DNA of 29,606 nucleotides. Origin: a virus. A model generated the notes under the pieces. The model was not told the DNA's origin. It made no database searches and saw only the letters and a program-made list of their open reading frames with translations. The translations under genes and the position numbers were made by a program. Shown here in pieces: positions 13,060 through 26,080 of this stretch. Position 1 is the first letter of the stretch; each line of letters begins with the position of its first letter. The DNA is taken from the IMG/VR virus record IMGVR_UViG_3300042522_000129, positions 1 through 29,606 of that record, one strand, 5' to 3'.

Positions 13060-14295
13060 TTAATATGAGTTGAAACTAGAAAGATCGATTTGTGTGAGTT
13101 GATAACCGCCACCCAAAGTAGTCATCATAGTATTAATAGCAGTTATGTGGTCACTTACTAGAGTTCCGCCGCCAGCACCTCCAGAAGTAAATGTTCCAAG
13201 AACTACCAAATCTCCATCAATTATTAATAAGACCGGATTACCCGAATCCCCCGTGATTATGTTTTCATAGTATGATTGTCTCAAGGTAGAAGATGGGTAT
13301 TGTAAAAAAAATGACCCCAAATTGCCGAATGAACCTCGCCAATTTGCCACACTTGCCCTTTCGTTTTGATTTAGTCTTAAAACGGGTATACTAGAAGATG
13401 TTGAAAGGGAAGGTAAATATGTTCGCCAATTTGATGGAAGGACTTTAGCAAAAGAAATTGATAAGGGAACATCAGAATCTAATACTCCTATGCAGATATC
13501 TGGATAGTATGGAACATAAGATGGGTGTGTCAATCTGTTTGTAATTGTGCGAGATATAACAGTATTGTCAGAAGTTACAAATTTAATAGTAGCTCCGATT
13601 TCTGGACGAAAGTTAAGATGTTCGCAAAATAAAACATGTCTACGACTGATCAAAGTGCCACCCATAGTGTTTCGACCTGTACTATTCCAAGGAGAAATAC
13701 AAGTTAAATCTATATCACTAATCCAACAATTTTGATTACGTATAAAAGTGTTACCGTTGATAGAATCCTGCGATGAATAAACTGTCATATCGCCAGATAA
13801 ACGAGAATCTATTTGCTGCTCACAATGCAAAGCTAAAGAATTTGTTACCCAATTTAAAAAGGTATCAACCGTTGCAGACGATGCGCTAGATGTAGTGACA
13901 TTAATTAATGATACCTCGCCATTATTAGAAGTAACTCTTAATGTGCAATTTCCATTTGATTGATAGGTAGCAATTTGTGTGTCGATATTAGATTCTACAG
14001 GGTGCGACAAGACTGTGGGATTATCCGAAGAGAAAGTTATAGTATTATTAGATGGTATTCTATTTATGAGTTTCACAATGAAATCAGTTACATATGCTGT
14101 GCTAACATTTCGTAAAACTGATTTATCATTTACAGTTATGGTAGAAGATGAACCAGCAGAGGTAATTCGTTTTTTTTCTATGGCCTCTATATCAAAAGAC
14201 CTATTTGAGATAGTTTGTTTCTCAAATTGTCTAGTAAAGGTAGAGTTTGCTAAACCACAATTTATTGGATGATTTACAGCATCAAGCACAGCCAT
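13060..14295 (-). CDS. Trypsin-like serine protease, probably virion-associated
   Basis: A 411-aa protein. Residues 1-200 are Ser/Thr/Asn-rich and beta-like, as in tail proteins; the C-terminal half carries a chymotrypsin-fold protease. The triad is visible: His226 in LISRRHVLFCEHL (the TAAHC position), Asp266 in YYPDICIGVLD, and Ser351 in ITGDSGNPVLL, followed by LVVLGTFTSGG, a typical S1-pocket strand. A longer frame starts at 14310, but ATG at 14295 has GGAG nine bases upstream and overlaps the previous stop (TGATG), so it is preferred. Lying directly after fibre genes, it may process tail proteins or degrade host-surface protein. No signal peptide is seen. Confidence 0.85.
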   Translation of the reverse strand: MAVLDAVNHPINCGLANSTFTRQFEKQTISNRSFDIEAIEKKRITSAGSSSTITVNDKSVLRNVSTAYVTDFIVKLINRIPSNNTITFSSDNPTVLSHPVESNIDTQIATYQSNGNCTLRVTSNNGEVSLINVTTSSASSATVDTFLNWVTNSLALHCEQQIDSRLSGDMTVYSSQDSINGNTFIRNQNCWISDIDLTCISPWNSTGRNTMGGTLISRRHVLFCEHLNFRPEIGATIKFVTSDNTVISRTITNRLTHPSYVPYYPDICIGVLDSDVPLSISFAKVLPSNWRTYLPSLSTSSSIPVLRLNQNERASVANWRGSFGNLGSFFLQYPSSTLRQSYYENIITGDSGNPVLLIIDGDLVVLGTFTSGGAGGGTLVSDHITAINTMMTTLGGGYQLTQIDLSSFNSY

Positions 14296-14966
14296 CAAGT
14301 TATTCTCCATCTCTGAGTAACAGTATCGTATATTAATCTAACAGAATACGCTGCGGCTAGCGTGTAATTGGAACCATTTGGTGTAATAATTCGATCTACA
14401 GCAATAGGTGTAAAGGCTGGGTTTCCCCCATAAGTTGCCGTATGATGTTTTATTGTTACTGTTACAGAGCCAACATTTATTAATAATATTTCATAACAAG
14501 CATTTGGGGCAGTTATTGCCCATAAATCGAATGGAAATGTTGCTGATAGCCTTATTATATCGGGAGGTATAGTAGTAGTTATTGGTATTGTTGCATTTGT
14601 AAATCCACTCAAATTTAAAATTGTTTTTGCTGCCTTTGGGCCGACAACAATTCCTCCAGCGGTCTGACCATCTCCAACAACTAATGACTTTTCATCGGTT
14701 TTCCATACTGGTTCACCCTGTAGCGGGGTGATTGCTCCCACTTCTGCCGCCGTCCCTCTTCTGATTTGTAAATTAGCGGGGCTAGTCATATCAATCCAAT
14801 TGCCATCTTTTCTTCCATAAATGATCCCATCTTGTGGAGAATCAATGTCTTTCCAACTAATCTTTTTTGTTACATATGGATTACCACTATCAACTATAAC
14901 TAATAGATCATCGCTAGTTATAGATGTTGCTGATGGGAGTTCGGTTATTTTAATTACATTAGCCAT
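14295..14966 (-). CDS. Tail fibre-like protein with tropism-determinant-type N-terminal modules
   Basis: A 223-aa virion-type protein built of recognisable modules. Residues 1-40 (ITELPSATSITSDDLLVIVD, then VTKKISW) form the short leader also found at the start of the LRR fibre. Then IIYGRKDGNWIDM (48-60) is a common fibre motif. Residues 66-108 (LQIRRGTAAE, PLQGEPVWKTDEKSLVVGDG) match the N-terminal repeat of phage major-tropism-determinant and hyaluronidase-like fibres. The remaining 110 residues are beta-rich and would form the host-facing tip. AAAGG precedes the ATG. It is short for a fibre, so it may be a tip or accessory fibre. Confidence 0.82.
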   Translation of the reverse strand: MANVIKITELPSATSITSDDLLVIVDSGNPYVTKKISWKDIDSPQDGIIYGRKDGNWIDMTSPANLQIRRGTAAEVGAITPLQGEPVWKTDEKSLVVGDGQTAGGIVVGPKAAKTILNLSGFTNATIPITTTIPPDIIRLSATFPFDLWAITAPNACYEILLINVGSVTVTIKHHTATYGGNPAFTPIAVDRIITPNGSNYTLAAAYSVRLIYDTVTQRWRIT

Positions 14967-14987: not shown

Positions 14988-15848
14988 TTATAATTTAGCA
15001 GCCTCTCGGAACGCTTGATCAATTGTATCATTATCCATGCTGAAGTTAGACGCGATAAGTGCTACGAGCGGATTTGTTCTTTCAACATACGGCGCATATT
15101 CCCACAATACTTCTGCTTCTGATCTTGTTTGAGAATCAACAATGGCAGAAATAGCATCGGTAATTTGTCCCATTGTTATTCCATTACGTATCAACCAAAG
15201 GCGAATTTGGGTTGCTGTGATGCTTTGAGGTACGGGTAAAATAATTGGCTCTGGCGATGGAGGAACATAAGTGTAGTCCATGCCATTATTTGGAATAGCT
15301 TCATAAAGAGATTGATCTTCAGAATAATAAGCTATTACTCTGGATTCTTGTTCTGGAGTTAGTGTGGGTTTTTCTTCGGACGCCTCATTAATAACGGGAA
15401 GAGGTAATGTTAAACCAATATAAGCCGCAGCTGAATTAAGGTCTTCCAATTTAAAAACCTTCGCGGAAGGTTGAGCAAATGTGAATTGATGTTTAAAATG
15501 AACGTCTGTTCGTATTTTGCGAGATACTTTTCGAAATTTAATTTCTTTATCTTGTTCAAGTGCATTCAAAACGGCATTAACATCAGTTAAGCCTGCCTCT
15601 GCCATTGCAGAGCAAAAACGTGAAATTGGATTTCGAATTATAAGAACTATTGGCTTGCTAGGTTTTTCTTCGCGTGGGCAAAGCCAATGAGCCTGAGTAT
15701 TGTCCGGTCCTTTTCCCGCAGGATAAGCAGCGTTTTGAATTGTCGATTCTTGTTCTGGATAAAATGTGGCGATAATAGCGCGTGATAATGTACTAGAAGC
15801 TACTTTTGCATTAAATGCAACAGAATAAAGTGGTGTAATAAAATACAT
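14988..15848 (-). CDS. Sulfotransferase-like domain fused to a phage tail-associated domain
   Basis: About 286 aa (ATG at 15848 preferred because GGAG lies nine bases upstream; the upstream ATG at 15863 lacks a site). Residues 1-190 resemble a minimal sulfotransferase: VAFNAKVASSTLSRAI near the start matches the 5'-phosphosulfate-binding loop (KxGSTSL type), IVLIIRNPISRFCSAM matches the 3'-phosphate-binding motif (RxPxxRxxS), and VFKLEDL matches the later ExL strand. A Pro-rich linker (PPSPEPIILPVPQ) leads to an 80-residue C-terminal domain (ITATQIRLWLIRNGI, WEYAPYVERTNPLV, IDQAFREAA) that I know from small proteins in phage tail gene clusters. Catalytic activity is unproven; the usual catalytic His is not obvious. 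The fusion is unusual. Confidence 0.7.
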   Translation of the reverse strand: MYFITPLYSVAFNAKVASSTLSRAIIATFYPEQESTIQNAAYPAGKGPDNTQAHWLCPREEKPSKPIVLIIRNPISRFCSAMAEAGLTDVNAVLNALEQDKEIKFRKVSRKIRTDVHFKHQFTFAQPSAKVFKLEDLNSAAAYIGLTLPLPVINEASEEKPTLTPEQESRVIAYYSEDQSLYEAIPNNGMDYTYVPPSPEPIILPVPQSITATQIRLWLIRNGITMGQITDAISAIVDSQTRSEAEVLWEYAPYVERTNPLVALIASNFSMDNDTIDQAFREAAKL

Positions 15849-15875
15849 AAATATAGACTCCATTTGTTGTAATGA

Positions 15876-17582
15876 TTAACTTCCGTAGACAGTATAACCC
15901 TTGGCTGTTGCAATAGTGGGGTTATCACTACTTGTACCGGGATTGTTAGCAACATTCAAAAAGCCAGCACTTGAAGCAAGGTCGGAATAGAATTGATTCA
16001 AAGCTCCCGCAGATAAAGAATTATCGCTTATATCTCCTCCATAAATCAATCCATATGTATAGCCCGAAGACCCTCCAAGTGCAACACCAGTAGCACGTAA
16101 CGAAGTAAGGGAATTATCCGAACAATATAGAGTCGTTAACGCTGTAAATCCGCTAACGTCTAGAGAAACGATAAAATTATTAGCACAATTTAGACTACTC
16201 AATGAAGTTGCCCCGCTTGCATTTATAGATGTTATTGAATTATCTGAACAATTTAAGTTACTTAGTGACGTTAATCCACTAACATTCAATGTAGTAATGG
16301 AATTGTTAGAGCAATTTAAAATACCTAATACTGTCAATCCACCGACATTCAGTGTGGCGAGAGAATTATTAGAACAGTCTAAATAACCTAGTGATGTTAA
16401 TCCGCTTACATTTAATGAGGTAAGAGAATTATTATTACATGACAATTGCTCTAATGTTGTTAATTCACTAACATCTAACTCGACAAGGGCATTACTATCG
16501 GTCAATAGAATTTCTAAAGCTGTTCCGCTAAGTTCTAACGATGTGATGGAATTATTATAACAACGCAAATGGGTCAGCGATGTGGCTCCCTTCGCATTCA
16601 ATCTAGTAATAATTGAGTTGTTATAACAAAATACAGTATCTAATGCTGTCAGACCGCTAATATCCAATGCGGTAAGAAAATTATTATTGCATTCTAGACG
16701 AGTAAGCGCTGTCAATCCGCTGAGATTGAGCGATGTGAGAAGGTTATTAGCGCAATATAAATTAGTAAGTGCATTCAAGCCACTAATGTCTAGAGCAGTA
16801 ACCTTATTATTTGAATTGCTAACATTTATCCATGTTAAGTCGCCGTCTTGGCTTAGACCGCTACTATCAGTACTCCAAATAAAAATTTCTTTAGGAGAAG
16901 GACCACTCCAGCTACCTTCTAATGGAATACTTAATGTAATGTAATGAGTAATGTCGGAACCGTCGCCAAATAGAGTAAAAGTTCCATCCCATGAGCGGAC
17001 ACCAATATATCCGGTTGTAGATTTTACGTATGCAACAAATTCGCTAGTGCTAATTGTTACAATTCGGGCCATGCCAAGTGGGTTTTGTTGTGGTCCTTTT
17101 GTCATAGGATCGCTAGATGTTACTTGGATGCTTCCGTCTGGAAAAGTTAATCCTTTGGCACCGACTTCCATGTTAGAAGTCCCGACGCCGGGAAATTCTA
17201 ATGAAGAATCACACCAAATGTTAGCTGCTGTTGAGCCTCCATCAGTGGTACTTTTTAAATGACCGCCTTGCCAATTCAACTCATAGCCAACATAACAATT
17301 CAAACTGATACCACTTTGACCACCAGTTGAGTTGTCAAAAGTTCCTTGAGCTAGAGTGGTTCCGTTTGATAGATTTACACCAACAAATGTAGGGGTATCT
17401 GTTGTATTCAAATCTTGATCAAATGAACTTCCACCTCCACCGCCGATAACAGTAGCTAATTGACTAAGACTGATTTTTTTAGTAACTCCACTACCAGATG
17501 GGCTATCCATAAATAACATAATATCGTCATTGGACAATGAACCGCTTCCATCTGGAAAGTCTTTTATTCGTTTAATACTCAT
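15876..17582 (-). CDS. Leucine-rich-repeat tail fibre / receptor-binding protein
   Basis: A 568-aa modular protein. Residues 1-45 (IKDFPDG, DDIMLFMDSPSG, VTKKISLSQL) are the virion-leader module shared with the 223-aa fibre. Residues 55-157 hold fibre motifs: FDQDLNTTDTPTFVGV and LTFPDGSIQVTSSD. Residues 261-500 form 11-12 leucine-rich repeats of about 21 residues, consensus LTSLNVSGLTSLxxLxCsNNS, the BspA/InlA-like type with a Cys at each Asn-ladder turn. A C-terminal cap of about 65 residues follows. LRR solenoids bind proteins or glycans, so a receptor-binding role is likely. AGGTGG precedes the ATG, which follows the upstream stop directly. Confidence 0.88.
   Translation of the reverse strand: MSIKRIKDFPDGSGSLSNDDIMLFMDSPSGSGVTKKISLSQLATVIGGGGGSSFDQDLNTTDTPTFVGVNLSNGTTLAQGTFDNSTGGQSGISLNCYVGYELNWQGGHLKSTTDGGSTAANIWCDSSLEFPGVGTSNMEVGAKGLTFPDGSIQVTSSDPMTKGPQQNPLGMARIVTISTSEFVAYVKSTTGYIGVRSWDGTFTLFGDGSDITHYITLSIPLEGSWSGPSPKEIFIWSTDSSGLSQDGDLTWINVSNSNNKVTALDISGLNALTNLYCANNLLTSLNLSGLTALTRLECNNNFLTALDISGLTALDTVFCYNNSIITRLNAKGATSLTHLRCYNNSITSLELSGTALEILLTDSNALVELDVSELTTLEQLSCNNNSLTSLNVSGLTSLGYLDCSNNSLATLNVGGLTVLGILNCSNNSITTLNVSGLTSLSNLNCSDNSITSINASGATSLSSLNCANNFIVSLDVSGFTALTTLYCSDNSLTSLRATGVALGGSSGYTYGLIYGGDISDNSLSAGALNQFYSDLASSAGFLNVANNPGTSSDNPTIATAKGYTVYGS
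16083..16802 (-). repeat. Tandem 63-base repeats encoding leucine-rich repeats
   Basis: Eleven to twelve degenerate units of about 63 bases inside the LRR fibre gene, each coding for one 21-residue repeat. The units vary in sequence, so recombination between them could alter repeat number. This is coding structure, not a CRISPR array. Confidence 0.9.
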
Positions 17583-18588: not shown

Positions 18589-18933
18589 CTATTCGGTTGG
18601 TGTATTAGATTCAATAACTGTGACTGTACCATCTTCATTTATGGTAAATTGACCAACTAATGATAATCCTTCTTGAATGCTTTCTGGACTCACGCTGCCT
18701 ATTAATGTACCGATAGCATAGTGTAGTTCAAATATTTCTTTAGCATTTGTTCCTAATGCAGAAGATATATCTGATGGGGACGCACCGTTTCCATTACGCC
18801 AGAATATTTCAGACCCTTGATTGAAGGCGTTTACCATTTGTTGATAAGTATGTCTAGTGATTTGTATCAATCTTTGGGCAGCTAATTCTGCTGGCTGCGG
18901 TTGATTTATTGATTCATTGTTTAATATACTCAT
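18589..18933 (-). CDS. Hypothetical small protein, tail region
   Basis: A 114-aa soluble protein, mostly helical in the first 90 residues (RLIQITRHTYQQMVNAFNQG, then LGTNAKEIFELHYAIGTLIG) with a short beta end (GTVTVIESN). GGAG stands upstream of the ATG. It follows the large fibre gene by 14 bases. I cannot assign a family; small helical proteins in this place are often fibre assembly or virion accessory proteins. Confidence 0.7.
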   Translation of the reverse strand: MSILNNESINQPQPAELAAQRLIQITRHTYQQMVNAFNQGSEIFWRNGNGASPSDISSALGTNAKEIFELHYAIGTLIGSVSPESIQEGLSLVGQFTINEDGTVTVIESNTPTE

Positions 18934-18947
18934 TATTTTCTCCTATA

Positions 18948-21191
18948 TTATGGTGTGCCATAACTAACTTGACTAAAATCTACAACTCCTACCCAACGAA
19001 TATTTTTGCCAGCAACACCAGTTATTCTTATTTCTAATGCTTCATTGGTATCATCAGCAACAACATCAGCTATAGATGTTGCTATACTACTTTCAACACC
19101 ACTACTTGCTACTACGGTTCCTATCAAAACTGTTGAATTAGCATTATTTCGTCTAATTCCTCCCCTAAATGTCCACCATCCGCCTTGATGATTCGTTACG
19201 TTGTAAGCACTTAATTTGATATCAAAAGCCCAACATGTTTGTGCAGGAATAGAGAAAATATTATCTGCTGCTGGAGTTGATCCATTGAGGGTCAATATTT
19301 GTTGAGTGTCATCCGTGGTTAATCTTCTACCAATTAGGATAGTGTGCTGGGCATCACCGGCACTATTAAATAAGCCAGCAGCGTGACTTAATTCTCCCTG
19401 CCTAGTGGCTTTTCCTCTAAATCCTCCCGGCACGAATGAATATACTCCGTTGGCGATGTTATTTGATCCACCCCCTATAGATGAAGATGTGGCTGACGCT
19501 GTATTGGAAGTACCACCGCAAATAACTGATCTACTACCGGTAGCATTATTTAAGTCACCTCCGCATACTGTTGACCAATTACCGGTAGCTATATTAGTTT
19601 GTCCACCAACAACGGTTGAATAACTATTAGCGGTACGATTATCGGACCCTCCACCTATAACGCTATAGGTTCCAGCCGCCACTCCCGAAACAGAAGTTCT
19701 GACTCTTTGAAAGTCATTGCTATAAATACCTCTAGTATTTCCGCTAGTGTCTGCTAATAATGCACCAGCCCCATTTGGACTAACTATTAAATCTGTGTTT
19801 GCTGTGGCTATAGATAAAATATTGTTATCTAATCTAAGATCATCTACATTTATTTGACTAGTAGTACCCTCTATATTAAGCGTTCCATTTCCAAATAATG
19901 TTGCTATATTATTCGTTCCAGCATACCATTTAAAAGCCCTAGATGTAGATATGGGTATAGAAAACCACATAGCTCCAGCTTCTATGCCTAATGCATATTC
20001 TACTTGATTAGAAGCAACATTTGGTGATAAAACAATTTTAGTACCAAGACTTCTATTTGTTGTAAAAGCTGGCGCTGCTACTCCACTAGCATTAAAATCA
20101 ATTCTATTACCATTGGTCCCATTTAAAAATAATTGAGTATTACCAGTTTCATTACCAGTATTACCATCGATATCTATAGTTTTGAACAATCCACTATTAG
20201 CAATAAGGGTTGAAAAATTTCCACTAGAACTTGGAACCCATAGTCCACTGCCGCTGTTGTATTGTAGAAATTGACCGTTAGTAGCTCCATTTGTAGCGAC
20301 ATTGTGAAGTTCTTCTAATTCATAACCATTTTGTATGGCGACGTATATTCTTCCCGAACTAGAGTTCTTTTTGAGAACAACGCCAACAAACACAAGATGT
20401 TCTGGGGCATAATTCTTTGTTGTTGTGTATGTTCCGGGGGTATTTCCTAGCCATAAAATATCTCCAGCATTATAACTATTAGTGTCTATTCCCCTAATGA
20501 TGCCTCTATTTATGACCCAACCTTCAGAACCAGCTGATATATTTTCAGCTACTATACCAAATGTTTTAGCTGATGTTGTGTCTGATGCACTAGATGCTCT
20601 TTTAACAGACACTCTTTGCCCCTGTGCGCCAAATATATAAACAACTTCACCTTTATTTAATGTTGTGGTTTCAGCATTATAGACTAATGAGGTTAAGTCC
20701 TGACCAATAGATAAAGCAATATTGCCACCCTTCAGATATTCTTGTAAGATTCCTTCTCCATCATCCCAAAATATTGATCCATATCCACCAACCGTTTCTG
20801 GCGTTGTGTCAAATTGGATTGTATCAAAAGTACCACTGTGAGCAATTAAATTGCCGCTAACATTTAATAAAGTCCCATCAAAAGTTAAATTGCTTTCACC
20901 GTTGATTCCAGATGTGCTGCCGTCGCTAGTTAAAATTCTATTATCTAGAGGGTTGTATACATATGTTTGTCCTCCTCCAGACCCTGTTGATCCAGACCCA
21001 ATTGGACTTAAATCTGACCAAGTATCGATACCATTACCTATTTTAAGAATATTGGTGTCTACAGCGAAGGCTGGTTCACCAGAAGCTAAAACTGGATTAT
21101 AAGAAACGAAATCTGTTTCATTTCCTCTTCTTAATTGTATCTTCAAGAATTGTTTTTGAGAATCACAAGGATTTAGTTCATTTTCTGGCAT
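18948..21191 (-). CDS. Large tail fibre / adhesin-like protein
   Basis: A 747-aa fibre. ATG at 21191 (AAGGTG five bases upstream, TGATG overlap with the peptidase stop) is preferred to TTG three bases earlier. Residues 15-65 carry the module LKIQLRRGNETDF, LASGEPAFAVDTNILKIGNG, shared with the 223-aa fibre and with major-tropism-determinant-like proteins. The middle is Gly/Asn/Ser/Thr-rich, typical of trimeric beta shafts. Residues about 500-600 contain six or so repeats of 14-15 residues (VVGGQTNIATGNWST, VCGGDLNNATGSRSV) like the head repeats of YadA-type adhesins. The C-terminus (WWTFRGGIRR, LEIRITGVAGKNIRWVG) is a beta-sandwich-like tip. No S74 chaperone is visible. Confidence 0.87.
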   Translation of the reverse strand: MPENELNPCDSQKQFLKIQLRRGNETDFVSYNPVLASGEPAFAVDTNILKIGNGIDTWSDLSPIGSGSTGSGGGQTYVYNPLDNRILTSDGSTSGINGESNLTFDGTLLNVSGNLIAHSGTFDTIQFDTTPETVGGYGSIFWDDGEGILQEYLKGGNIALSIGQDLTSLVYNAETTTLNKGEVVYIFGAQGQRVSVKRASSASDTTSAKTFGIVAENISAGSEGWVINRGIIRGIDTNSYNAGDILWLGNTPGTYTTTKNYAPEHLVFVGVVLKKNSSSGRIYVAIQNGYELEELHNVATNGATNGQFLQYNSGSGLWVPSSSGNFSTLIANSGLFKTIDIDGNTGNETGNTQLFLNGTNGNRIDFNASGVAAPAFTTNRSLGTKIVLSPNVASNQVEYALGIEAGAMWFSIPISTSRAFKWYAGTNNIATLFGNGTLNIEGTTSQINVDDLRLDNNILSIATANTDLIVSPNGAGALLADTSGNTRGIYSNDFQRVRTSVSGVAAGTYSVIGGGSDNRTANSYSTVVGGQTNIATGNWSTVCGGDLNNATGSRSVICGGTSNTASATSSSIGGGSNNIANGVYSFVPGGFRGKATRQGELSHAAGLFNSAGDAQHTILIGRRLTTDDTQQILTLNGSTPAADNIFSIPAQTCWAFDIKLSAYNVTNHQGGWWTFRGGIRRNNANSTVLIGTVVASSGVESSIATSIADVVADDTNEALEIRITGVAGKNIRWVGVVDFSQVSYGTP
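19400..19690 (-). repeat. Short tandem repeats in the large fibre (adhesin-head type)
   Basis: About six degenerate units of roughly 42-45 bases encode a GG-x-N-x-A-x-G pattern in the 747-aa fibre. This is like YadA-type head repeats, which stack as a left-handed parallel beta-roll in trimers. Confidence 0.7.
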
Positions 21192-22108
21192 CAAAACACC
21201 TTATCTAAAGTCCAAGTTACTTTTCGCGGTGGGAATCCATCAACATCGCTGAATACCCAAGAACCGTTTTGATTTAACATTTCAGCAGCATCGCGTTCTC
21301 TTATCCAGAAACTACCTTCTGGTTGATCATGACGTTTTTCACCGCCATTCCATACGCCCCAACTATTCTGAATGAGGAATAGCGTTTCATTATAAATTTC
21401 GTGTGTATCATCTACACCTATCCAAGCCATCGCGTGACTCCAAGAGCCACTTCGTGATGCTACTCCATATTTATCTCTTCTTGAAGAGAATCCAGAATTA
21501 CTACAAACACTAATAGAATAACCATTAGCAATAGCATCTCTAGCTTGTTCTATTGTATTTATTAAGCTGATAGTTTTAACTTTATGTTTTTGGGCATATT
21601 TAACTAATTCATCTGGAACTCCAGAGCGGCCCCATTTACCACCAATGGCACTGTATTGTGATAAATCGTAGTCGCCGTACTTTTGTCGTAATAATATTCC
21701 ACCCGTTTGATTTACAAATCGTGCGGCACCAGAACAGGTCATGCCCTCGCCGCCGTGCCCTCTAGAACCATAGATACCCTCTGTTGCTCCACGGGCAACG
21801 AAATCTTCTCGTTCACCGTTTAATATTTCACAACTACGGGTCACATCTACAGCATTTCTAGTTGCATGGCTAACACAATCGCCTTGTACCTGTCTTTCTG
21901 ATGGACCAAACGCTGGATCAAACTGTAATAAAGACTTAAAAGGTAAAGCTAGTTTACCCTTTCCAGTGCCAAACAAATCGTGTGCTGCCACACCGAATAA
22001 TGGGTGTGGAAGCTCTCCAAGTAATTTGTCTAAATCTTTTGGGTCACAGTATGATCCAACAAAGCCGTCTTTATAGGCTTTAAGTAAATCTCTAGGTGTT
22101 TTAAACAT
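21191..22108 (-). CDS. Papain-like (C1-type) cysteine peptidase
   Basis: A 305-aa protein with the papain triad in order: Cys78 in RQVQGDCVSHA (the preceding Gln serving the oxyanion hole), His225 in GSWSHAMAWIGVDD, and Asn248 in FLIQNSWGVWNGG followed by GSFWIRE. The glycine-rich GIYGSRGHGGEGM stretch lies between. No signal peptide or propeptide is evident, but residues 1-70 could be a short pro-region. It lies between a holin-like gene and the large fibre. C1 peptidases are unusual as endolysins; possible roles are virion maturation, host protein cleavage at entry, or peptidoglycan cross-link cleavage. AGGAT precedes the ATG. Confidence 0.87.
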   Translation of the reverse strand: MFKTPRDLLKAYKDGFVGSYCDPKDLDKLLGELPHPLFGVAAHDLFGTGKGKLALPFKSLLQFDPAFGPSERQVQGDCVSHATRNAVDVTRSCEILNGEREDFVARGATEGIYGSRGHGGEGMTCSGAARFVNQTGGILLRQKYGDYDLSQYSAIGGKWGRSGVPDELVKYAQKHKVKTISLINTIEQARDAIANGYSISVCSNSGFSSRRDKYGVASRSGSWSHAMAWIGVDDTHEIYNETLFLIQNSWGVWNGGEKRHDQPEGSFWIRERDAAEMLNQNGSWVFSDVDGFPPRKVTWTLDKVF

Positions 22109-24691: not shown

Positions 24692-25026
24692 GGCTCGTCT
24701 TTGAGACTTTCCTTATGACCATTGAGTATTTTTTCTCTTACTTGACGGCTTATATGTGTGAAAATTTTGATTAGTAACTCTTCTTGATTATCTTTAATCA
24801 ATGATGACTTGATCATTTCTATAGTTTCCATATAGCAAGTTTCTTCTGCTAGTGTATCCAATAATTCACAAAGACTAGCGATAGAATCATCGTCATAATC
24901 GGACAGTTGTATATTTATGTATGGTCCAGAACCGTCTGGTTTCATATAATAACATATAGAGGCTGATACTGGCTCATCCGGTTCTTTAGGCGGGTTGTCT
25001 TTTCTTCTAAAGAATTCAAATAGCAT
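24664..25026 (-). CDS. Hypothetical protein
   Basis: A 120-aa soluble, acidic protein with a polar N-terminus (RRKDNPPKEPDEP), a short beta stretch (ASICYYMKPDGSGPYINIQL) and a helical remainder with many Leu, Glu and Ser. It overlaps the glycosyltransferase gene upstream by 11 bases, and its end contains the promoter for the sigma genes. The ribosome site is weak, implying coupling to the gene before it. No family is recognised. Confidence 0.72.
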   Translation of the reverse strand: MLFEFFRRKDNPPKEPDEPVSASICYYMKPDGSGPYINIQLSDYDDDSIASLCELLDTLAEETCYMETIEMIKSSLIKDNQEELLIKIFTHISRQVREKILNGHKESLKDEPCIRPSDMV

Positions 25027-26080
25027 TAGTTATCTTTCTAGCTGAGTTTTCCCATGTAAAATTTTTAGAGGTTTCAATACCAACAGTATTTAGTTCTAAT
25101 GCTCTGTCTTGATGCAATCTATAAACTTTTCTCATTGACTCGACCATGTAATCTATAGTATTATAGTCAATTTTGGCCCAATTACCCTGACCATGAAACC
25201 ATTTGCCATCATAAGCAACTTCTGTCTCACTGATTGGTGCTAAATAAGAATTGGCATCTGTGCAAAATTCAGTATGAGCAGAATAATTTGTTGTTATAAC
25301 TGGCCTGCCACAAGCCATCATTTCTAATAATTCTAAGTTCCACCCTTCTGCTCTAGAAGGAAATATGCCGCAATGGCATTGTTTCATAATAGTATACACT
25401 TCTTTTTGGGTTGGCTGTCGCGGGATAATAGAAATCTTACTGCCCAGTTTTGATTCTTTATAGAGTCTTACCCATTCTTTTTGCTCATTTTCAGTATAAA
25501 ATGGATTATCACACATCAATACTAATTCTACGTCATCATTAGTTTCAAATGCTTTATTAAATATTTCTACTAGAGCGTCGTGTCCTTTTCTTATTTCCCA
25601 TTTTCCGCAGTTATAGAATCTAGTAGTTTTAGAGTCAACATACTCTGCTGGCTCAAAAATACTTAAATCTACACCTAGAGGTATTACGCAAATCTTATTT
25701 TCATCGATAGATAGATTCTCTAAAATCACTCCCTTTGCCCAATTTGAGCAAACAAATACTTTGTCTAGAGAACTAAGATGATGTTGTTCAAGTTTGTCAA
25801 ACTTATCTAATTCAAAGATTGGGAATCCAATTCTTAAGCCTCTACCGACAAATTGAGTCATGTCGTTTTGATGCCATATTTTAATACATGGAGCATCAAA
25901 ATCTGTTAATCTACCCCTTGATATACAGCTACGAATAATGTTCGCATCTTCTTCGCTTGTCACTTGGGGTTGCCCTATGCACCATAAAGACACTGGTGCA
26001 ATTTTGCTAAGACTTTTGGTTATGTTTAATCCGGTGACTCCATAACCAAGTTGATTAATAGGTGTTAATAAGTTTATCAT
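25016..26080 (-). CDS. Glycosyltransferase family 4 (GT-B fold)
   Basis: A 354-aa glycosyltransferase of the GT4 type. The N-terminal half has YGVTGLNITKSL near the acceptor side and VFVCSNWAKGVILE; IPLGVDLSIFEP marks the linker. The C-terminal half has RFYNCGKWEIRKGHDAL and the EX7E motif (E245 and E253 in AEGWNLELLEMMACGRPVI), which holds the nucleotide-sugar diphosphate. Length and motif order are complete. AAGGAA precedes the ATG. It overlaps the upstream glycosyltransferase by 26 bases, so the two probably act in one pathway. Confidence 0.9.
   Translation of the reverse strand: MINLLTPINQLGYGVTGLNITKSLSKIAPVSLWCIGQPQVTSEEDANIIRSCISRGRLTDFDAPCIKIWHQNDMTQFVGRGLRIGFPIFELDKFDKLEQHHLSSLDKVFVCSNWAKGVILENLSIDENKICVIPLGVDLSIFEPAEYVDSKTTRFYNCGKWEIRKGHDALVEIFNKAFETNDDVELVLMCDNPFYTENEQKEWVRLYKESKLGSKISIIPRQPTQKEVYTIMKQCHCGIFPSRAEGWNLELLEMMACGRPVITTNYSAHTEFCTDANSYLAPISETEVAYDGKWFHGQGNWAKIDYNTIDYMVESMRKVYRLHQDRALELNTVGIETSKNFTWENSARKITNAI

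Follow-up and report, generated by a model that had tools for sequence, protein, structure and literature searches.

The closest described systems include tail-fiber chaperones on one side and phage sulfotransferases on the other. The chaperones V22 gp27 and A5 gp9 carry the domain DUF4376, and cell binding by V22 gp26 is reported to require co-expression with gp27, which is described as absent from the final complex (PMC7289586, PMC10579305). Phage sulfotransferases as such are already known; in work on OM43 phages they are counted among phage metabolic genes, and their role is called unclear (PMC10580990). The nearest published case comes from Burkholderia phage CSP3, where a gene of the CysH family, named PAPS sulfotransferase (PAPS reductase), lies downstream of the tail fiber genes (PMC10269572). 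Among the papers listed by searches of the open-licence PMC literature, we found no link of true sulfotransferases to fiber genes or fiber-accessory domains.

Here we analyze a sulfotransferase-like gene in a stretch of viral DNA of 29,606 nucleotides (IMG/VR record IMGVR_UViG_3300042522_000129), referred to as the window. At 100% identity, the window forms part of a 132.6-kb phage contig (G001), whose predicted terminase shares 24–26% identity with the best 10 of 42 matching cultured-phage records. By homology, fold, and conserved cofactor-site residues, the gene product is a predicted PAPS-type sulfotransferase, to which a small tail-associated domain is fused. Most of its relatives lie directly behind a tail-fiber gene, a position suggesting that, in some phages, the virion part that grips the host is chemically decorated.

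Gene organization and neighbors

The fusion gene occupies positions 14988–15848 of the minus strand, stop codon included, and encodes a protein of 286 residues; the plus strand of this interval is stop-rich throughout. An alternative ATG for the same ORF is found at 15863, but the start at 15848 fits the proteins of several relatives, which open with MYF.TP or similar. The sulfotransferase domain (residues 1 to ~192; 15273–15848, minus) was identified through a relative that exceeds the PF03567 cut-off, comparison of a structural model with the PDB, and a family HMM. It contains the predicted 5′-phosphosulfate-binding loop NAKVASSTL (residues 13–21; 15786–15812, minus), recognized from sequence, model, and conservation, and the predicted 3′-phosphate-binding motif RNPISRFCS (residues 72–80; 15609–15635, minus), supported by conservation and by alignment with 3-OST-3. 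A proline-rich linker of approximately residues 193–206 (15231–15272, minus), similar to the linker of a relative at locus L140, separates the two modeled domains. The C-terminal tail-associated domain (residues 207–286; 14991–15230, minus) is defined by matches to phrog_6034 and phrog_14311, alignments, and the model.

Directly upstream, positions 15876–17582 (minus) encode an LRR tail-fiber-like protein (LRR_4, E 1.6e-22) with the C-terminus ...NPTIATAKGYTVYGS, and this gene ends 27 nt before the ATG of the fusion gene. Directly downstream lies the gene of a 223-aa protein with an Mtd_N domain (14295–14966, minus; PF18454, E 1.3e-10), next to that of a 416-aa protein (13060–14310, minus) whose GDSGNP, H, and D motifs resemble those of trypsin by eye; Pfam (E ≤1) and PDB sequence searches gave no match for it. 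The initial annotation described a protein fused between an LRR fiber and another fiber. The gene does lie behind an LRR fiber, as a separate gene that precedes an Mtd_N-bearing one; the fusion is real in that the enzyme is joined to a small tail domain, but it does not extend to the flanking fibers.

Further along the minus strand, the window encodes a 114-aa tail-cassette protein (18589–18933), 62% identical over a 98-aa piece to a protein of the related phage G003, and a 748-aa fiber with an Mtd_N domain (18948–21194; PF18454, E 9.3e-11) that resembles the 1700-aa fiber of the same phage by tblastx. A 305-aa protein at 21191–22108 (minus) is papain-like by eye (QGDCVSHA, SHAMAW, NSWG), has no Pfam or PDB sequence match, and is conserved on the L140 contig.

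The sulfotransferase domain and its family

Both PAPS-type motifs and an N-terminal sulfotransferase domain had been read from the sequence at the outset, and relatives, model, and conservation agree with that reading. The motifs are present as FNAKVASSTLS, with K15 and S18, and as RNPISRFCS, from R72 to S80 with an Arg-to-Ser spacing of 8. Taken alone, the window protein gave chance-level results far below the cut-offs against Pfam (best E 0.19, none at E ≤0.05) and NCBIfam (best E 0.077), and a weak match to phrog_3347 (E 0.0028–0.0068) that is collinear over residues 60–137. Searches with the enzyme half by tblastn found no match in 50,697 phage records, and neither tblastn against plasmids nor a PDB sequence search gave a relative. 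Two peptide scans from this half found the window's own phage only and a third found none, and bacterial genome scans, with only 2–6 peptide patterns per scan, yielded 63 and 94 stretches and no relative, so that a cellular source for the enzyme may still exist. A match to PilC (E 0.015), spanning 63 residues, was discounted as due to chance.

The sulfotransferase signal, weak from the window sequence alone, becomes firm through relatives. Scanning viral contigs for DNA that encodes a loosened K-P-x-L-T-P-E-Q-x-x-R-V stretch returned 39 stretches, 32 of which, the window phage included, were judged family members by eye, while the other seven are unrelated proteins. An alignment of the window domain with two relatives of 51 and 54% identity (A4) led to 23 loci, and the alignment of a second group (A6) to 56 distinct loci, among them the window phage at 29% identity. 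A family HMM built from 27 members detects 113 ORFs at E ≤1e-5 in the collected loci (one contig may count as several loci), and these form 50 clusters at 90% identity; many members are only ~160–250 aa long. The relative L132, which is 51% identical to the window domain in A4, passes PF03567 (Sulfotransfer_2) with 24.0 versus 22 bits. This family matches 12 of the 27 members at E ≤0.05, and every other Pfam family matches at most one. Close relatives are under purifying selection, with a dN/dS of 0.13–0.30 in six usable of eight close pairs tried (some pairs share a row); the pair L139/L140 was set aside as saturated and L145/L149 as too close.

The full-length AlphaFold model, computed from 27 rows, has a mean pLDDT of 86.5. 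A structural second look, which re-ranks Foldseek candidates, gave 182 chains with Z ≥2; the best 50 of these 182 are all sulfotransferases, with Z of 5.2–7.3, values below 8 being middling by the tool's own warning. Residues 6–192 are the region of the model aligned with PDB sulfotransferases, and the top match, heparan sulfate (HS) 2-O-sulfotransferase (2-OST; 3f5f), extends over 151 residues with a Z of 7.3 and an rmsd of 4.0. This enzyme presumably belongs to PF03567, and the listed Teg12 and Teg14 are likewise taken to be sulfotransferases. With Foldseek by itself, a 2-OST entry comes top at a non-significant E of 0.15, in a list with many unrelated proteins, and the fold assignment therefore rests on the uniformity of the sulfotransferase list combined with the Pfam result. 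For the predicted model, the structure search does not refute the initial annotation.

In the model, K15 and S18 occupy a strand-loop-helix turn between the strand of residues 9–11 and the helix of residues 18–29. Residue 15 is K or R in 47 of the 50 clusters, and the remaining three are gapped at that column; NAKVASSTL is read here as the 5′-phosphosulfate loop typical of such enzymes. The R72–S80 motif follows the strand of residues 67–71 and is partly inside the helix of residues 74–84, where S80 is located. R72, P74, R77, and F78 are found in all 50 clusters, and residue 80 is S or T in 49. The RxPxxR motif, expected to line a nucleotide pocket, is aligned with that of 3-OST-3, taken from a PDB entry with PAP bound: RNPISRFCS pairs with VRDPVTRAIS at the same R-to-S spacing (E 0.57, weak when taken alone), which is consistent with the predicted role.

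In sulfotransferases, the catalytic base is typically a His or Glu located between the two motifs. Inspection for this residue yielded a candidate in that interval, H54, but only 12 of the 50 clusters have His there, and L140 has Q. At the column of residue 42, H is found in 30 of 50 clusters and Y in the window protein. A lectin built on a dead enzyme, one of the options considered initially, is less likely in view of cofactor-site residues that are conserved in very divergent members and of the low dN/dS given above.

The C-terminal domain and the fusions

That the last ~80 residues form a tail-associated domain is supported by matches of residues ~207–286 to phrog_6034 (E 7.5e-19) and phrog_14311 (E 4.2e-12), and by a scan that found the domain in 77 viral loci including the window phage, C-terminal in mostly small proteins. 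Small proteins of phiM9, Palo, Acica, and Flavobacterium phages align with residues 207–286. The domain genes of phiM9, Palo, and filifjonk stand behind a tail collar, tail fiber, or structural gene, and that of Acica behind a hypothetical gene in the tail region. We analyzed 71 of the other 76 domain loci, leaving out L075–L079, which have the same score as L074, and grouped them into 45 clusters. Of the 43 testable clusters, 41 have the start of the domain-bearing gene directly behind an ORF of 150 aa or more, and in 34 of the 43 the G+S+T+N share of this ORF reaches 0.33 or above. Both counts are without a control set, and where several starts were available, we chose the start that gave the longest upstream ORF, which favors a hit. 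The enzyme half was found in none of the 36 records searched among these 76, in a search without a positive control.

The modeled C-terminal domain has a pLDDT of 96.2. Compared with the PDB, it has no convincing match, the best being AcrIIA1 (Z 5.3), followed by mostly HTH-like proteins, and its matches in a viral library include one named tail fiber assembly-like. The C-terminal 90 residues have no Pfam match at E ≤10, neither to DUF4376 nor to another tail-fiber assembly domain, and for this reason the window protein is not classed as a DUF4376/Tfa-type tail-fiber chaperone. Its position, 27 nt behind the LRR fiber gene, is nonetheless chaperone-like, and the same arrangement is seen in L140. 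We infer that the fusion protein serves the adjacent LRR fiber.

A C-terminal extension of more than 30 aa is present in three of the 50 clusters, represented by the window protein, L140, and L103. The L140 protein (282 aa) has the same two domains as the window protein and is 56–59% identical to it. Its cassette repeats the window order: before the fusion gene stands a homologue of the window LRR fiber, split over two frames there, and after it comes one of the 416-aa protein (tblastx pieces of at most 73% identity). In the L103 cluster, which comprises three contigs, the enzyme is instead joined to DUF4376 (E 7e-17), a domain found in L103 only among the proteins scanned. The other 47 clusters are enzyme alone, with no fused domain, so docking must work otherwise in them.

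Position behind fiber genes

The family was compared with other ORFs of similar size from the same loci for its position relative to fiber-like genes. A hit was defined as an upstream ORF of at least 150 aa with a Gly/Ser/Thr/Asn (GSTN) share of at least 0.36, within a 150-nt gap to a 40-nt overlap; one of the 50 clusters is too close to a contig end. The enzyme stands directly behind such a fiber-like ORF in 39 of 49 testable clusters, versus 11 of 219 control ORFs, where controls start at the first start codon and the enzyme start is set by the HMM (Fisher p 1.4e-27, with some dependence among the clusters). The hit at L214, with its gap of 139 nt, is a doubtful one among the 39. Four of the ten failures have upstream ORFs of 262–869 aa with a GSTN share of 0.31–0.35, and two of these four are, by Pfam, a LamG (L109) and an LRR (L140) protein. 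The remaining six include one enzyme behind another enzyme copy, one without an upstream ORF, and four with non-fiber-like neighbors. In 20 of the 49 clusters, the stop codon of the upstream ORF shares 1 or 4 nt with the start codon of the enzyme. At locus L202 (3943–5048), two tandem copies of the tail-linked sulfotransferase lie behind one GSTN-rich ORF.

Ten chosen upstream proteins comprise, by Pfam, six LamG lectins, three LRR proteins (below the cut-off in L216), and one without a match. Many others have a Gly-rich C-terminus ending ...GAVVLYFT, and this end allowed a reverse scan independent of the enzyme sequence, for DNA encoding GAV[VI][LF]YFT and a stop codon. Among 50 such fiber ends, several of them on the same or near-identical contigs, the enzyme follows directly in 34 and does not in 16. 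An equivalent scan with the LRR fiber end kept 80 of 87 loci, with the enzyme directly behind in 34 and not in that place in 46. At L254, L256, and L299, the place behind the LRR fiber is occupied by the C-terminal domain without the enzyme. At several loci within L263–L297, LRR fibers without the enzyme are followed by a short gene whose product starts like ..SGFYKLD..LLYGPNFVLN.., perhaps another fiber-accessory family.

In a tree of 48 LRR-ended fibers, all ten with the enzyme are set apart from the rest by a single branch (support 91), and many inner branches are weak; this suggests a long-kept partnership between LRR fiber and enzyme. The 48 are representatives of 60 fibers, 20 of the 80 having been dropped because the protein runs more than 70 aa past the match start. 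A C-terminal Tyr is present in eight of the ten fibers with the enzyme behind them and in none of the 38 without it. A role of this Tyr as sulfate acceptor is unsupported and is not claimed here, since the tree needs a single change and gives one independent pair, and since Gly-rich fibers ending in GAVVLYFT occur both with and without the enzyme.

A proposed model for fiber sulfation

The computed basis for a functional model comprises homology, fold, conserved cofactor-site residues, purifying selection, frequent linkage to fiber genes, and fusions to two kinds of fiber-linked domain. We propose, with a confidence that stops just short of evenly balanced, that the window protein is a PAPS sulfotransferase carried on a tail-fiber accessory domain that modifies the newly made fiber inside the infected cell. 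The enzyme, PAPS-dependent and from a phage-borne branch related to Sulfotransfer_2, would be translated next to the LRR fiber; the C-terminal domain would dock it onto the fiber, probably at the tip; and sulfate would be added to the fiber or to a fiber glycan within the cell, before virion release. The gene's place and the fusions point to the fiber as partner. The cofactor PAPS occurs inside cells, the host cell included, and an active enzyme therefore most likely works before lysis. No APS kinase match exceeded the cut-off in 19 phage records, many of them fragments, and two records had matches below it. Among the targets named in the initial annotation, the phage's own fiber, acted upon within the cell, seems best placed.

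For the family as a whole, we are more hesitant. Its members may be tail-fiber-sulfating phage enzymes in a chaperone slot behind LRR, LamG-lectin, and Gly-rich fibers, sometimes delivered by accessory domains of the kinds involved in fiber folding, so that sulfation, of protein or of a phage-encoded glycan, would form part of adsorption.

The slot of fiber-tip accessory proteins would also suit a virion-borne adhesin, in which the fold is kept at the fiber tip as a non-catalytic binder of host surface groups that are sulfated or resemble nucleotides. The catalytic base is only a candidate, and Mu Tfa and S16 gp38 are reported to remain on the fiber, although the DUF4376 chaperone V22 gp27 is reported to be missing from the final fiber complex (PMC7289586). 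We regard an adhesin as unlikely, given that the deep conservation of PAPS-motif residues would be needless for such a protein.

The window phage encodes GT4-type/group-1 glycosyltransferases, a GDP-mannose 4,6-dehydratase, and a GT2-like protein just under the Pfam cut-off, together a set for making and transferring sugars; group-1 glycosyltransferase and associated genes lie at 25016–26080 (minus) and, in G001, at L006 12359–13207, L010 6439–7530, and L007 1462–2574. At L104, a GT2 gene follows right behind the enzyme, and a phage GT2-like protein is 67% identical to its product. From the GT2-like and other glycosyltransferases, a fiber glycan is a possible sulfate acceptor. These genes, and the PAPS of the host cell, would equally serve an enzyme that sulfates host envelope glycans or their precursors during infection and blocks superinfection or alters the receptor. 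Such a host-surface role appears improbable, since the place directly behind fiber genes, the 20 of 49 stop/start overlaps, and the fusions to fiber-linked domains fit fiber modification better. Least probable of all, an ex-sulfotransferase domain could act as a structural cap only, a fiber trimerization chaperone with cofactor binding incidental or a folding switch, as would be compatible with the chaperone slot and with DUF4376 and the C-terminal domain as fusion partners, but the 47 clusters of enzyme alone and the conserved cofactor site speak against it.

Through the linkage to fibers, one branch of phage sulfotransferases can be assigned a specific, testable task where the virion binds its receptor. 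If the fibers are sulfated by the window enzyme and its relatives, this would amount to sulfation of the virion by a phage enzyme, and not only the fiber sequence but also the enzyme would determine how charged and how specific adsorption is. Recombinant fibers produced without the enzyme could then mislead, and tools that predict fibers would overlook some of their chemistry. The family is also a source of small sulfotransferases that have the gene of their likely substrate as a neighbor.

Comparison with known systems

The CysH family of the CSP3 gene presumably has a reductase fold, other than the sulfotransferase fold predicted here. PHROG 3347, annotated as a galactose-3-O-sulfotransferase under moron, auxiliary metabolic gene, is a borderline match to the window protein.

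A second type of phage sulfotransferase is found close to the window phage. The related 159-kb phage G003 has fiber and small tail genes in common with the window, and also a 139-aa protein with the C-terminal domain. It carries a stand-alone Sulfotransfer_3 gene (L096 11555–12355, minus; PF13469, E 6.8e-13) between its 1700-aa fiber and a conserved 118-aa gene, and its counterpart of the 114-aa protein comes after this gene; the Sulfotransfer_3 protein has no sequence similarity to the window protein. Members of phrog_27463 are present in S-SRM01 and G003, with tblastn relatives in S-SKS1 and S-SCSM1. In G003 and S-SRM01, the Sulfotransfer_3-type genes likewise stand directly behind GSTN-rich fiber-like ORFs, and the S-SRM01 region contains tail fiber, glycosyltransferase, and epimerase genes, whereas the neighbors of the S-SCSM1 gene are not tail genes. 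We therefore confine the tail-linkage claim to the present family, the cyanophage Sulfotransfer_3-type genes being not uniformly tail-linked.

Other genes were noted in these cassettes. S-SRM01 (L093 41680–43137, MW015081) has an annotated flavin-dependent halogenase near putative tail fiber/adhesin tip genes, possibly another fiber-modifying enzyme. A pair of genes for proteins of 325–328 aa and 415 aa recurs in two sulfotransferase-holding tail cassettes (L125 4012–6230 and L096 4152–6382); the larger protein appears by eye to combine TPR with an FkbM methyltransferase and has no Pfam match in L125.

The family shares with its Sulfotransfer_2 (PF03567) relatives, for instance HS 2-O-sulfotransferase (PDB 3f5f, 4ndz), a common fold, the K/R loop, and RxPxxRxxS. 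Unlike them, it is phage-borne and mostly located behind fiber genes, and its window member is fused to a tail domain. The genes of the DUF4376 chaperones V22 gp27 and A5 gp9 are reported to lie directly behind a fiber gene, as do most of those of the sulfotransferase family, but the C-terminal domain of the window protein corresponds to phrog_6034 and lacks DUF4376. The small tail proteins of phrog_6034 and phrog_14311 (phiM9_137/138, Palo_050, and filifjonk gp065) have the same C-terminal domain at 25–31% identity, and they carry a short variable N-terminus where the window protein has the enzyme.
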